DNA of 64,000 nt. It comes from an uncultured Gemmatimonadota bacterium. GTDB taxonomy: Bacteria > Gemmatimonadota > Gemmatimonadetes > Palauibacterales > Palauibacteraceae. The position numbers and the translations under genes are program-made. The stretch lies in contig CAJWLK010000004.1 in the NCBI GenBank assembly GCA_913043255.1, forward strand, positions 62,001 through 126,000, in the 5' to 3' direction. Under the pieces are notes generated by a model. It saw nothing but the letters and a program-made list of their open reading frames with translations. It was not told the DNA's origin and ran no database searches. Positions 15,398-22,935 of the stretch are shown in pieces (positions within the stretch are counted from its first letter, which is position 1; every line of letters starts with the position of its first letter).

Positions 15398-15847
15398 ATG
15401 GTTGAACTGATTCTTAGAAAAGATGTTCCAGATCTTGGTCGAGCGGGCGAAATGGTTCAGGTTCGAGCCGGTTACGCACGAAATTACCTGATCCCCCAAG
15501 GTATTGGACTCCCAGCAACTGAGGGTAACCGTAAGAGTTTTGAAGACGAGAGGGCTCAGGTCGAGAAGGCGGCTGAGAGGGAGCGCGACCAGGCGAAATC
15601 GCTTTCAGCAGAACTAGAAGGCCACTCAGTCACTTTTTCTGTCCGTGCTGGTGAAGAAGGACAGTTGTTTGGCTCGGTTACGGCCGCAGACATTGCGGAG
15701 AAGCTCGGTAGCGATGGGTTCTCGGTCGAACGTAGGTTTGTTAAGCTCGAAGATCCAATTAAGGAGTTGGGTGTATATGATGTACCGGTCCGACTTCATG
15801 CTGATGTGGAGGTGGTCCTAAAGGTCTGGGTCGTCGCCGAAAAATGA
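15398..15847 (+). CDS. rplI: 50S ribosomal protein L9
   Basis: MVELILRKDVPDLGRAGEMVQVRAGYARNYLIPQGIGLPAT; start trimmed from ORF-track 15341. Confidence 0.96.
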   Translation: MVELILRKDVPDLGRAGEMVQVRAGYARNYLIPQGIGLPATEGNRKSFEDERAQVEKAAERERDQAKSLSAELEGHSVTFSVRAGEEGQLFGSVTAADIAEKLGSDGFSVERRFVKLEDPIKELGVYDVPVRLHADVEVVLKVWVVAEK

Positions 15848-16239
15848 CGATGATTTCTCGTCCGCTTGATGTCGTTTGGGGAGAACTGTCCAAGGATAGT
15901 CAGCCTCCGAAAGAGCTTCGGTTTGTGGCCGAAGCCGCACTCGAGCGTAATGCTCGATCTGCTGCTGTGCTTGATCTGCGAGGAATCTCTGATGTGACGA
16001 GCTTTTTCGTAATTGCGACCGGAGATTCAGACACACACTCGCGTGCAATCAGCGAAAATATCCTAGACCGAATGCGTGGCGCAGGATATCGACCAATCGG
16101 CGTTGAGGGCCTGAACCAAGCTCGATGGGTCTTGATGGACTTTGTAGAGTTGATCGTCCACGTTTTTCTCAATGAAATGCGAGAGTTTTATCAACTCGAG
16201 CGACTATGGGGGGATGCGCGGATCTTCAAGTTCGAGTAA
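15844..16239 (+). CDS. rsfS: Ribosomal silencing factor RsfS
   Basis: VLDLRGISDVTSFFVIATGDSDTHSRAISENI, GLNQARWVLMDFVELIVHVF, YQLERLWGDA. Confidence 0.95.
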   Translation: MTMISRPLDVVWGELSKDSQPPKELRFVAEAALERNARSAAVLDLRGISDVTSFFVIATGDSDTHSRAISENILDRMRGAGYRPIGVEGLNQARWVLMDFVELIVHVFLNEMREFYQLERLWGDARIFKFE

Positions 16240-16326: not shown

Positions 16327-17949
16327 GTGGGTTGGTGGATGTGTCGATGTGGAAGCTGTGATGTGACGAGTTCAGTTCGACTGCCTTCCTGTAGCCTCAC
16401 ATGTTTCGGGGCATGTGTTGTGGTGACCCTGCTCGTCAGTTTCGGGGCGTGTGGCTCCCCTCCGACCGACCAACCAGAGCCGCTCTATGGTGCGGATCTT
16501 GTAGCGGGCACATCACTAGAACGTCACGGTCTGTTGGTAATTCCTAGGGAAACTGGTGTGGCCGAATTCCGCTCTATGGAAGATCCGTCGACCATTCGGT
16601 GGACTGGACGTCTGATTCTCCCTACTACCAAGGCTGCACATGGGTTAGGTCGAACTGTGGTGTTACGCCATCAGGGTGGTGCTAGCCTTTATACCCCGTC
16701 ACCCGAAAGTCTAACACTACTCCCCAATGTGCCCCCCCAGGCTAGGTGGATCAGTTCTCCTTCAGGCGGCTCGTTTGTCGCTGGTGGTTGGGCGCTTACA
16801 GTCACCTCATCCACGTCTCGCGTGATCACGGCTGATGGTGAGATTTTGTGGGCCGCGCCTGTCGCTGATGACCGAGCGGTAGGGCTTATCGATTCTCCGT
16901 CAGGACCCAAACTTGTGGTATGGGAGGCAGAAGAGGAAATCCCATCGAACACAAGGTCTGTGAGCACACGGGGTCCAGTCATCGTCACTGGTTGGGGAAA
17001 TGAGGTTGTGGGCACATCTAACGATGGCACCCGACTCATCAGATGGTCGATTCCTGACCTCGAGTCTGTGGAGGTCTTGAAAATTGACAACGCAGTTGCA
17101 GCCCTGTCTACATCGCCCTCTCAACACCGAATATATGTGGTTATGGCTGCAAATCCTGAACTCCTCGCGGTTGATCGATATGATTGGCAAGTCGTTGGTA
17201 CCGTTCGTAATGATGAGCATTTTGAGGCGCTTCGCATTAGTAAAACCGATGATCGGATCTTGGCGTATGACGGTACCACGGTTTGGTCTATGCGGTCGGG
17301 TGGGACAAATAAAATGGCTATCCCGAGTCAGTGGCGGTCCGACTTTCCCATTTCCCTGCTGGATGGATCCACACTTGTTATTGACTCAGCTGGCTTAGGG
17401 GTTTACGGAGCGGGTGGTTCCCATGTGAAAGCAGTGGATGGTCCGCTAAGTGCATGGTGGATTCCGGTGCACTGGGGCCCCCGTGCACCGGTGACTGCCG
17501 TTTCATCCACACCGGACGATACGGTAGTAGGACAGCTAGAACTGTCGCCGCTATCACCTCGGAGAATCGGTCTTTTAACGATGGGCTCTACAGCTGGCCG
17601 TGCAGGTGTGCCGCGCCGCAGAGACGCCGCTGTATCGCCTGATAGTCGAGTCGCTCCCAATAGCCTGACGACGCCTGATACTCAAGTAAGGTCTTTGCTT
17701 AGTAGTGGATTTTATGTGGTTGTGAACTCTTCCCGACAACTCGCAAGCCTTGAGGGGCTTGAGGAGGCTCTTGAGGGTTCAAGTTATTCGACACACGTGG
17801 CCCCACATGTCGATGAAGCCGGCGATATGTGGTATCGCCTACTCGTCGGTCCGTACATCTCTCGTTCTTCGGCTGATACAGTTAGTAGTGAACTCCGCCG
17901 CGAACGTGGCATCGATGCGTGGATCCAAGAAATAGATGGACAGAGATGA
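16327..17949 (+). CDS. Lipoprotein: predicted beta-propeller-like region plus C-terminal SPOR domain
   Basis: Hydrophobic signal with lipobox-like VSFGAC; repeated blade-like segments (e.g. GTSNDGTRLIRWSIPDLESVEVLKI); SPOR-like FYVVVNSSRQLASLEGLEEALEG...WYRLLVGPYISRSSADTVSSELRRERGIDAWIQE. Confidence 0.7.
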   Translation: MGWWMCRCGSCDVTSSVRLPSCSLTCFGACVVVTLLVSFGACGSPPTDQPEPLYGADLVAGTSLERHGLLVIPRETGVAEFRSMEDPSTIRWTGRLILPTTKAAHGLGRTVVLRHQGGASLYTPSPESLTLLPNVPPQARWISSPSGGSFVAGGWALTVTSSTSRVITADGEILWAAPVADDRAVGLIDSPSGPKLVVWEAEEEIPSNTRSVSTRGPVIVTGWGNEVVGTSNDGTRLIRWSIPDLESVEVLKIDNAVAALSTSPSQHRIYVVMAANPELLAVDRYDWQVVGTVRNDEHFEALRISKTDDRILAYDGTTVWSMRSGGTNKMAIPSQWRSDFPISLLDGSTLVIDSAGLGVYGAGGSHVKAVDGPLSAWWIPVHWGPRAPVTAVSSTPDDTVVGQLELSPLSPRRIGLLTMGSTAGRAGVPRRRDAAVSPDSRVAPNSLTTPDTQVRSLLSSGFYVVVNSSRQLASLEGLEEALEGSSYSTHVAPHVDEAGDMWYRLLVGPYISRSSADTVSSELRRERGIDAWIQEIDGQR

Positions 17950-19406
17950 GCGAGTTTGTCGGGGAAGGCGAAGCTGGGAAGGGATGTGATCAGGAAGAGT
18001 CGCCTTTTGCGTGGGACTTGCCAGCCGATGCTCGTATCGTCGCTTTGATACACGATTCAAAAGAATCAGAACGAAGTGCCACGGTAGTGGAAGCAATAGC
18101 AACGGCGATTGCTCGTCGACGTGAACACACGCTTGTTTTGAGCACCGAGGTGGGGCCATCTCCGTTAGATAAGCTGATGGGTGATATCAGCAGGTCTGAG
18201 GGACTCCCCGCGGTGCTTGGGGGTCGTGCTCGTCTCGCTGACGTTGCTGTTCAGATAACTGATTGTCCGTTCGTATACCTGCCTGCCGGGGTAGATCTTG
18301 AAGCCATTTCCCAAATGTTACGAGGAGATATCTTATCCCGTTTTATTCAAAGAGTGCGGGAGCGAGGAGGTACGCTTTTTCTAGTATTGCCTAATAATGT
18401 TCCTTTTTCACATGAAGTACGGTCATTACTAGATGGGTATATTACGTTGGGTAACGTGACGGTTCCTGAACACCTCAAAAATCTTCTAACGTTTGGTCGA
18501 ATACGTTTCGATGAATCGAAAGATGATTCATTCCTTGGTCATAATAGTTCCGTCTCTATCGGGACCAGTGGACAAGACAAATTAGCTAGCATCGTTGCTC
18601 AGAGTATCGCGGCGGATAAAGATGAAGATGGTGAGCAAGAGCTTCCCCGTCCTAATACGAGCGTCTGGTCCCAACACCAAACCAAGACACACTTCCCGCT
18701 GAAGCAAGCGGCGATAGGTATCAGCACTATTGTGTTGATTTTCCTGGGTTGGTGGTGGATGCTTAGGGCCACTGATGTGGGCGAAGGACAGCTGCTTGAA
18801 CCGACGACACCAGCCAAGGTTGAAATCTCTTCCGCCCCTCGTATAGTACCTTCTCTTGAGCTAGATGACGCTAGGGAAATGGTCAAAAACGCGTCGGAGC
18901 TTCCATTTTCCGTGCTCATTGCAAGCTATGCAAGTCTAGCAGATGCAGAAGAGCGTGTCGCTGAGCTCGAATCCGATGGCGGGGCGGTCACGAGGCTTTA
19001 TTTTGTTTCACCGACCCCGGTTCGAGGAGTACTATATTATCGTGTTCTTGCGGGTGCGTTAGCCGATGAAAATGAGGCTGAAGCGCTTATGAAACGCCTA
19101 GTGGAAGCAGGGAAAAAAGAAGAAATAAGCCCTTGGCATCTCCGTCCCTCCGGGCTTTCGTTTGACCTCGGCACCTTCACTGATAGTGTGGGTATGGAGG
19201 CTAGGGTGGCCGAGCTCGCGGTTAAAGGGATTCCGAGTTATGTGTTGGTAACCACTTTAGGTGAATATGAAGCCTTTCAAGTGTACGGAGGAGGATATCG
19301 CAACCAACAAGAATCTCTCCCGATGGCAGAACTCCTTGGAACCGTCGGTGAACCTGCGATGTTGATCGCACGCCACGGTGGCGCCGTCTCTTACCCATTA
19401 CCCTGA
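17946..19406 (+). CDS. Degenerate BY-kinase/ParA-like P-loop domain, TM helix, two SPOR-like repeats
   Basis: N-terminus RIVALIHDSKESERSATVVEAIATAIARRREHTLVLSTEVGPSPLDKLMG...GLPAVLGGRARLADV...YLPAG follows the BY-kinase pattern without GK[S/T]; TM AAIGISTIVLIFLGWWWML; SPOR-like C-terminus. ATGA overlap with upstream gene. Confidence 0.65.
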   Translation: MSEFVGEGEAGKGCDQEESPFAWDLPADARIVALIHDSKESERSATVVEAIATAIARRREHTLVLSTEVGPSPLDKLMGDISRSEGLPAVLGGRARLADVAVQITDCPFVYLPAGVDLEAISQMLRGDILSRFIQRVRERGGTLFLVLPNNVPFSHEVRSLLDGYITLGNVTVPEHLKNLLTFGRIRFDESKDDSFLGHNSSVSIGTSGQDKLASIVAQSIAADKDEDGEQELPRPNTSVWSQHQTKTHFPLKQAAIGISTIVLIFLGWWWMLRATDVGEGQLLEPTTPAKVEISSAPRIVPSLELDDAREMVKNASELPFSVLIASYASLADAEERVAELESDGGAVTRLYFVSPTPVRGVLYYRVLAGALADENEAEALMKRLVEAGKKEEISPWHLRPSGLSFDLGTFTDSVGMEARVAELAVKGIPSYVLVTTLGEYEAFQVYGGGYRNQQESLPMAELLGTVGEPAMLIARHGGAVSYPLP

Positions 19407-19413
19407 GCGATCT

Positions 19414-22400
19414 TTGAAGATCAAATCTCTCACACTACATGGATTCAAGTCCTTTGCGGACCGAACGAAGGTCGAACTCCACGACGGACTCACGGCGATC
19501 GTAGGTCCGAACGGCTGTGGGAAATCCAACATCTCTGATGCGATACGATGGGTGTTGGGAGAACAGCGTCCAACTGCCATTCGTGGTTCGCGGATGGAAG
19601 AAGCGATCTTCGGTGGTACCGAAGAACGACGCCCCATACATCGCGCCGAAGTGACGCTTGAGTTGTCCAATGAGGACGGCGTACTGGCGGTCCCTTACTC
19701 GGAGGTCTCTATCGGACGAACGGTCCACCGTGGGGGTGAAAGCGAGTATACGCTGAATGGAACTGCGTGCAGGCTACGCGACATTCTTGATCTTTGTCGC
19801 GACACCGGTCTTGGGTCCAATGCCTATGCGATGATTGAGGCTAGGATGATCGATGCAATCTTGTCAGACCGAGCTGAGGAACGCCGATCGCTGTTCGAGG
19901 AGGCCGCCGAGGTTGGTCGATATAAGGATCGTCGCCGCATCGCGACCCGTCGATTGGAACAGGCTGAAGCTGATCTGCAGCGGCTTGACGATGTCCTCAT
20001 CGAGATTCAGTCAAAAGTTCGCTCTCTTGCTCAACAGCGTGGACGAGCTGAACGCCATGGTACCTTGCGTAACCGGCTTCTGCAGCTTGAGGTAGCTGCA
20101 GCTGATGCACTCCTAGAACGGACTGAGCAGCGACTATGTGAAGCGCGCCAAGAATTAGTTGCACTGACTCAGACAGGGCCATCTCAAATGGTCGACCTCC
20201 AGACTTCGGAGACCGAACTTGAGACACTTCGGATCGAATTTTCTGAGATGGAAGGGGAGCGCGCAGATATGGCCCGGTTGTTGGAAGAGGCACGGCGTGG
20301 AGTTGAAGCACAGGAACGGGCGTTGCTCCTAGCCCAAGAGCGAATGGCAGCTGCTCGAGACCGACTAACCGCTATGGCTGAAGAGGAACGGCAGATAGAA
20401 GCCCGTAGTGCTGGGTTACAAGTGGGCTTGGATGAGGCGCAACGGACCCTGACTGGTGCCGAGAAAGTGCACGACCAGAACACTGTAGTTGAAGAAGATC
20501 TCCGGAGGGTGGCTGAAGAATTTCTATTGACTTCTCAGAGTGCAATTGCTCGTCGTGATACGGTACGTGAAGAAGTGGAAACAGCCCGTCGTGAGCTGGA
20601 TCGTTGGAGTCTTGAGCTTGATACGAGTGAGGAAAGAGCCCGCCATCGCTCTGAGGAACTAGAGCGCCGCCGTCCGGCACTCGAAGCTCTCGCCAAACAC
20701 GAATTAGAACTGAAACGCTTAATAGCAGAAGCATCTAAAATTGAGGTCTCAGCCGGCAAACGGTTGAGTATGCTCACGAATGAGTTGAGAGATGTACGAG
20801 CGACGGTGGATGAGACGGACGAGACTCTTCGTGAGATGCGGGTAGAAGCTGCCCGTCTAGAGGGTCGATTGTCGACGGCTCAGGCACAAGCTTCTAGTCT
20901 GGGCGCGTTGGTCAACTCAAGTGCGATGCTACCAGAGATTCTGGTCGAACTTCTTGAAGACCGTGAGGCGGTTTCCGGTTTGGATGGGGTACTGTCAGAT
21001 TATATTGAAGTGACGTCGGAATGGGCTTCAGCCGTTGAATCGCACCTTGGTCCCTATCTCCATGGGCTTGTCGTTCGCGATTGGGACACGGTGACACGCG
21101 TGCAGGATTGGCTTGAGGCCCATGGAGGCGCTGAGGGTATTTTAGTTCTGCCAAGGGACCCCGGCCCGTGGTTTGACGCGATAGACTCTGCCGAATCTTC
21201 GCTTTTGGAAAAAGTTGAAGTGGCAGGGCCTGGAGCGACATGGGCAACAGCACTTCTTACTAACGTTGAAGCTCTGGAAAACAGTACCTTCTCACCCAGA
21301 GACCACCCTTGGGTGGGGCCTGACTGCCGCCGGCAGGATCGTTGGGGCGCGGTTTTTATCGGTTGTCCTGGAACAGGGGCAGGTGTTTTAAGCCGTCGAA
21401 CGGAACTCCAGATAAGGCGTGAAGAAGTCGCTGATCTTGAGGTGCTCCGGGATGAACAACTAAAAGAAATCGAGGTGTTTGAAAAGCGGTCGGAAGTAGA
21501 AAGACAGAGTCTCGAGGGGCTTGAGAGTACGGTGACTGAAGTTTCAGCTGAGATCCGTGAGGCCGAAGCCGATCACGCCTCGGCGCTGTCACGTTTACAG
21601 CGTCTTGATGACGAGCGTCGAGAACTCGCAGGTCAGATCCAGGAGATCGAAGCTTTACAAGAAAGCGAGAGCCAACGATCAGGGACGGGTGGGGAGCGTA
21701 CGAGAGAACTGGAGGCGGCCGTTCAGGAAACAAAGGTGGTCCTCACGTCAGCGCAATCTGAAGCGGATAAAGCCCGCCATGCTGCTGATACGAAGCGGAC
21801 TGAGTTTCATGAGGCACAGCTTGAACGAACACGCTTTGAGGCTGACCTAAGCAATCGACGTCAAGTGATGGATCAGATTGCTGAAGCTTTAGAAGATGCT
21901 CGCGCTCGGACGCGAGTCTTGTCTGAAGAACGTGAGATGCTCAACCGTCAACTAATTGAAAACCAAAGTGTAACAGAAGAGGCGGAAGAGGCAACTGTAT
22001 CGGGTCTGAGGGAGCGAGCGGAGAGTGAGAGCTTACTGGTCACATTAGAAGGCAAGATTTCTGAGAGCCGTGAATTTATGCGAGAGCGGGAGGCAGAACT
22101 CAAGAATGTGAGACAGCTTGAGCGCGAGAGGATAGAGGTACGGCATGCTCTTGAACTCGAGATCACTCAACTGGAGGCTGCTGAAGCTGGCGTCCGAGGG
22201 CGCTTAGAAGCCGAATGGGACACTTCGCTCGAAGACTTACGGGAGCAGGCTGAACCTATAGAAGATGGAGATCCGGACGCATGGGAAGACGAACTCGACC
22301 AAGTTCGGCGTTCAATCGCAAGGATTGGTCCTGTCAATCTGCTAGCCCAACAGGAATATGAGGAAGAGAAGACGCGGCTCGAGTTTTTGACTGAGCAACG

Positions 22401-22935
22401 AGAGGACTTGCTAGAGGCGCGCGACGATCTGAAGGATTCAATTGGTCGTATTAACAAGCATGCTGCTGACGAATTCAACAACACGTTCGAGCAAGTCCGC
22501 GAGAACTTCCATCGAACTTTCGATGCCCTATTCGAGGGAGGCGAGTGCGATGTTTGGCTAGAAGACTCTGAGGATCCGCTTGATTCACCAATTGAGATTT
22601 CAGCAAGTCCGCGAGGTAAAAAGACTCAGCGTATCCACCTCCTATCGGGAGGTGAGCGTGCTCTTACGGCACTGGCCCTTTTATTCGCTATCTATCTGGC
22701 GAAACCAAGCCCGTTCTGTCTCCTTGATGAAGTCGATGCTCCGCTTGATGAAACAAATATCCTCCGTTTTGTCCGAATGCTTGAAGAGTTTAAGGAAGAC
22801 ACCCAGTTCATCGTTATTACGCATAATCCGCGAACGATGGAAGGTGCTGACTGGATCTATGGAGTTACCATGCAAGAGGTTGGTGTCTCTTCGATTGTTG
22901 GTGTCGAGTTCGACGAGGCTCCACAGGTAGCCTGA
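19414..22935 (+). CDS. smc: Chromosome segregation protein SMC
   Basis: [39 protein letters not shown], coiled coils, hinge, [40 protein letters not shown]; likely TTG start at 19414. Confidence 0.97.
   Translation: [1173 protein letters not shown]

Follow-up and report, generated by a model that had tools for sequence, protein, structure and literature searches.

The window analysed here, a stretch of 64,000 nucleotides from an uncultured Gemmatimonadota bacterium, contains a genuine, coding open reading frame in which a BY-kinase-type domain devoid of catalytic motifs is joined through one TM helix to two SPOR domains (Table 1). The first-pass annotation had read this frame as a degenerate domain followed by a TM helix and SPOR-like repeats directly before smc, a layout that is borne out by the reading frame itself, by AF2 models and by the TIGR02168 match of the downstream gene. 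The ATG of the pseudokinase-SPOR gene shares the letters ATGA with the stop of the preceding frame, giving a 4-bp overlap. The product of that preceding frame has a Cys after a hydrophobic stretch, as read from the sequence, together with a repeat-rich, propeller-like body, and it ends in a SPOR domain. As for smc, TTG 19414 is a likelier start than GTG 19378 (within the interval 19378-19416), because homologues align from residue 13, and smc would therefore begin 7 bp past the stop of the SPOR gene.

Table 1. Features of the pseudokinase-SPOR locus, in positions of the window.
Feature	Positions	Strand	Description
rsfS, conserved upstream neighbour	15844..16239	+	TIGR00090 E=7.3e-30
Upstream SPOR-lipoprotein gene (probable)	16327..17949	+	PF05036 residues 459-533, E=3e-9
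BY-pseudokinase-TM-SPOR-SPOR gene	17946..19406	+	486 aa, ATG start, single-pass membrane protein
N-terminal BY-kinase/MinD-fold domain	18033..18515	+	residues about 30-190; catalytic motifs absent; AF2, Foldseek, family profile
Walker A position	18051..18083	+	residues 36-46 HDSKESERSAT; GK[ST] absent; 0 GK[ST] in aligned relatives
Walker A' position	18132..18167	+	residues 63-74 LVLSTEVGPSPL; Asp lost, unlike in most other families
Single TM helix	18708..18764	+	residues 255-273; side before the helix more positive (N-in)
SPOR domain 1	18906..19148	+	residues 321-401; PF05036 E=3.5e-12, AF2, Foldseek
SPOR domain 2	19155..19370	+	residues 404-475; AF2 beta-alpha-beta-beta-alpha-beta unit; missed by the Pfam model
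smc	19414..22935	+	TIGR02168 E=7.8e-261; TTG start probable

A P-loop fold had been expected at the N-terminus, and a BY-kinase/MinD-type fold is what both structure prediction and profile comparison return. The AF2 model of the N-terminal domain, built from 15 sequences, has a mean pLDDT of 84 and a pTM of 0.78, with pLDDT >90 over most of residues 31-190. When this model was submitted to Foldseek, VpsO (6u1q) ranked first (E=1.7e-6, prob 1.00, TM 0.55), followed by Wzc, CapB and MinD; TM-scores of 0.5-0.6 point to the same fold with clear divergence. Likewise, when a 26-member family profile (A1) was compared with the PDB, the E-values were 1.2e-11 for BceF, about 1e-9 for Wzc and 2.8e-5 for MinD. 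BY-kinase models are matched by relatives from other families with E-values of 1.5e-8, 6e-8 and 1.1e-7; the matches at 1.5e-8 and 6e-8 are to TIGR01007, and their alignments start within that model, close to the P-loop or past it. An NCBIfam search of the 486-residue protein suggests MinD weakly (E=0.0024).

The catalytic motifs have been lost from this fold. In the AF2 model, strand 31-36 runs straight into helix 38-56 around HDSKES, and GK[ST] is found at the Walker A site neither in the window protein nor in its aligned relatives, in a motif table where row L102 is a wrong, dnaX-like ORF, some rows are duplicates and three GRS matches are due to chance. The Walker A' position of the window protein reads LVLSTEVGPSP, without Asp; this residue, present in most other families (ADL/VDL), has disappeared from almost the whole of the window's family (f1). 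The Walker B Asp is missing as well, its position reading GTLFLVLPN, a hydrophobic run, and no Tyr that might form a Tyr tail is read in residues 190-254. The domain lacks the deviant Walker A of MinD/ParA (KGGxGK[ST]), and its BY-kinase-type fold is not the AAA domain that precedes the TM helix in DamX-like AAA-TM-SPOR proteins. Since the domain lacks GK[ST], Walker B and a Tyr tail, and a BY-kinase fold (AF2, Foldseek) without any Walker motif or Tyr tail (motif table) is what defines EcpK, the domain is a BY-pseudokinase in the sense used for that protein (PMC12004946). Of the earlier reading, the degenerate Walker A and A' sites and the BY-kinase half of the "BY-kinase/ParA-like" designation are upheld; "ParA-like" is a less exact label than BY-pseudokinase.

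Despite the loss of motifs, omega in close species pairs is 0.16-0.49 for the N-terminal domain, similar to the SPOR part (0.22-0.41) and below the linkers (0.45-0.90), and therefore the catalytically dead domain is kept by selection. Two other descriptions of the domain, a decaying junk domain and an active ATPase, are ruled out by dN/dS and by the motifs, respectively.

The protein possesses one hydrophobic stretch, which lies between the N-terminal domain and the SPOR part, as had been foreseen. More positive charge is found before the TM helix than after it in 52 of 61 relatives, the scanned segment differing from the true TM in a few of these 61 rows, and this predicts an N-in orientation. 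The charge pattern thus favours a topology with the N-terminal domain inside and SPOR outside, and sequence, fold and charge together lend good support to the earlier proposal of a pseudo-ATPase on the inner side and SPOR on the outer side.

At the C-terminus, where a SPOR fold had been anticipated, two were found. PF05036 detects SPOR1 only (residues 321-391, 46.9 bits against a cut-off of 21), and the AF2 model of the C-terminal 176 residues (pLDDT 91.5, pTM 0.87) displays two full beta-alpha-beta-beta-alpha-beta SPOR units. Single-domain Foldseek matches are DedD, CwlC and RlpA, at prob 1.00; the whole pair gives no match at E<0.001, probably because solved structures contain single SPOR domains. 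The beta-1 Gln of SPOR has been reported to touch denuded glycan in RlpA, where it is Q270, and to be important in FtsN (Q251) and DamX (Q351) (PMC6895207). At this site, assigned like the Arg site below by alignment rather than structure superposition, SPOR1 of the window protein carries Leu and SPOR2 Asp; in other families, 7 of 26 rows have Gln at the SPOR1 site, a residue that was lost in the window's lineage. The beta-3 Arg of the basic patch is kept in SPOR1 in 29/29 rows of the window's family and 24/26 others (53/55 overall), and SPOR2 of the window protein carries Gln in its place. As the beta-1 Gln is lost in both SPOR domains, canonical glycan binding is doubtful, and the residues present make wall binding by the tandem module plausible, not assured.

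The spread of the pseudokinase-SPOR protein exceeds chance: of 60 relatives, 48 gave a match, among them every one of the 16 other genomes of the genus, and the A1 profile reaches most families of the class. Across the phylum, profile matches occur in 258 of 298 genomes, a count that includes other SPOR-bearing or kinase-like proteins. A named-genome scan with a smaller alignment returned records labelled Gemmatimonadota, Gemmatimonadetes, Gemmatimonadales, Candidatus Benthicola and uncultured bacterium, and a scan of genome contigs with the single sequence gave no match. Two genomes of the genus encode a second pseudokinase-like paralogue (L054:3474-4529 and L055), the L054 copy ending in a TM helix without SPOR. 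A second double-SPOR protein of genome G040 (L046:6579-8096) shows a weak zinc-ribbon match N-terminally and does not adjoin smc. The sister class f11 (L109, L110) has AAA-TM-double-SPOR proteins with an intact GDIGTGKTT, the SPOR part of which matches the same profile; between this class and that of the window, the cytoplasmic P-loop-type domain appears to have been swapped and the outer SPOR module kept.

Within the window's class, the linkage to smc that had been suggested for homologues is found throughout: smc lies directly downstream, often with a 4-bp overlap, in 49 of 49 orthologue neighbourhoods picked by their match to the pseudokinase-SPOR protein and not by smc. These comprise 31 of 31 orthologue loci of a first set, outside which stand three more loci (L046, L054, L055) that are paralogues or a second copy and are without smc, and all 18 loci from the class in a second set, the adjacency of five (L096, L097, L099, L106, L107) being derived from match coordinates relative to the end of the smc ORF. 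The same linkage was sought in sister class f11 and is absent from its two loci. On the upstream side, a SPOR lipoprotein gene usually precedes the pseudokinase gene, the lipoprotein and rsfS being frequent neighbours, less constant than smc, and in f2 several kilobases separate rsfS from the lipoprotein gene. The adjacency to smc hence outlasts upstream rearrangement across about ten families. The nearby gene order also includes rpsF, rplI, dnaX and other housekeeping genes, and therefore adjacency alone is weak proof of function.

Neighbourhoods taken from smc instead reveal several reduced arrangements: rsfS directly before smc with the pseudokinase gene absent (L117, L118, L120), the SPOR lipoprotein alone retained before smc (L125, L127, L128), and smc-linked pseudokinase-TM proteins whose SPOR part has been lost (L116, L119). 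Given that some genera lost the gene, smc does not strictly need the pseudokinase-SPOR protein; as judged from its distribution, the gene is probably ancestral in the class and was repeatedly lost or trimmed.

Each part of the protein has known counterparts. EcpK, a BY-pseudokinase with a proposed scaffold role, and HfsB, from Myxococcus and Caulobacter, likewise have a BY-kinase fold without Walker A, A' and B or a Tyr-rich tail and are thought to act as scaffolds (PMC12004946). EcpK, however, is a stand-alone protein that partners PCP-2 for exopolysaccharide, whereas the window domain is fused to a TM helix and two SPOR domains and adjoins smc; no PCP-2 partner in a polysaccharide locus accompanies it, the conserved neighbours being rsfS, the SPOR lipoprotein and smc. 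The BY-kinases Wzc, VpsO, CapB and BceF (TIGR01007, TIGR03018) share with it the fold, the beta-alpha order and a "GLSDVLSG...LPAG"-like segment, but their catalytic motifs, Wzz-type partner and Tyr tail are all missing in the window protein. CpsD of Streptococcus pneumoniae, also with a BY-kinase-type domain, has been shown to localise to the division site and to bind ParB (PMC4574921); unlike the window protein, it has kinase activity, depends on CpsC for its membrane association and is without SPOR. The f11 proteins resemble the window protein in their related double-SPOR module and one TM helix, and differ in that an active-looking AAA domain replaces the pseudokinase and smc does not adjoin. 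DamX, DedD and FtsN of E. coli have one SPOR domain each and are not known to carry a pseudokinase domain or to be linked to smc. As predicted for the window protein, they have a cytoplasmic N-terminus, one TM helix and an outer C-terminal SPOR domain (PMC7642682). Literature searches that paired SPOR with pseudokinase, or combined it with tyrosine kinase and smc, found no description of such a fusion, and pseudokinase-TM-SPOR-SPOR is a new combination of known parts.

Gemmatimonadota have been reported to be without Min, MipZ, PomZ, MapZ and SsgAB, extra ParA-like proteins being named as candidates for division-site placement (PMC11271474). In this regard, MinC_C matches 0 of 61 genomes of the class and does match six control genomes. 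The genome under study holds four SPOR matches, two of them within the putative pseudokinase-SPOR operon, and two amidase_3 genes whose products could make denuded glycan.

These findings allow us to propose, at about even chances, that the pseudokinase-SPOR protein is a septal single-pass scaffold that connects the cell wall with the SMC/chromosome side. One operon would probably yield the SPOR lipoprotein, the pseudokinase-SPOR protein and SMC. In the inner membrane, the cytoplasmic dead BY-kinase domain would most likely bind partners without ATP turnover, a TM helix and flexible linkers would join it to the periplasmic tandem SPOR module, and that module should position the protein at the constricting cell wall. 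In this way the protein may, as the cell divides, tie the wall at the division site to the machinery that organises the chromosome, whether SMC itself or ParB/ScpAB. We infer a partner in the chromosome machinery because the smc adjacency is tight and lasting and because CpsD and ParB provide a precedent (PMC4574921); any contact with SMC itself is hypothetical and drawn from gene order. A more specific version, a coupling system particular to this class of Gemmatimonadota in which the pseudokinase binds SMC (or ParB) while the tandem SPOR module and the SPOR lipoprotein mark where the wall constricts, and which coordinates chromosome folding with septation in the absence of Min, MipZ, PomZ or MapZ, seems to us rather unlikely.

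The main rival to chromosome coupling is a wall-only envelope scaffold of the DamX/DedD type, active in the divisome or in cell separation, whose partners would be limited to wall synthases, amidases and the SPOR lipoprotein encoded next to it; linkage to smc would then stem from an old housekeeping operon, with no contact to the chromosome machinery. We regard this as a serious possibility, though short of an even one. DamX and DedD act on wall synthases (PMC7642682), the other surrounding genes are mixed housekeeping genes, the double-SPOR protein of the sister class is unlinked to smc, and the SPOR lipoprotein is the other frequent neighbour. Such a scaffold does not, however, readily account for an smc adjacency that survives upstream changes in about ten families, and a large, constrained cytoplasmic domain derived from BY-kinase/MinD suggests a cytoplasmic partner.

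Membership in the same pseudokinase class as EcpK (PMC12004946) would also be consistent with a protein that, in the manner of EcpK or HfsB, partners a polysaccharide co-polymerase and serves capsule or exopolysaccharide export. This appears most improbable: none of the conserved neighbours was recognised as a polysaccharide-export gene, a separate bona fide BY-kinase match lies elsewhere in the genome (E=3e-59), and the outer part is SPOR and not a Wzz domain. Also very unlikely is that the N-terminal domain, rather than a dead scaffold, is a regulated switch with an unconventional mode of binding nucleotide or some other ligand: the Walker A' Asp retained in most other families and the persisting purifying selection would fit such a switch, but GK[ST] is absent in every relative read, Walker B is a hydrophobic run without Asp, and the window's family has lost the A' Asp too.

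Under the preferred reading, that of a septal scaffold reaching towards the chromosome machinery, the pseudokinase-SPOR family is a concrete, class-wide candidate for division-site placement in Gemmatimonadota, bringing together a ParA/BY-kinase-type domain, a membrane anchor and domains of a wall-binding type in a gene immediately before smc. BY-pseudokinases, so far tied to polysaccharide export, would thereby gain a possible role in the cell cycle.
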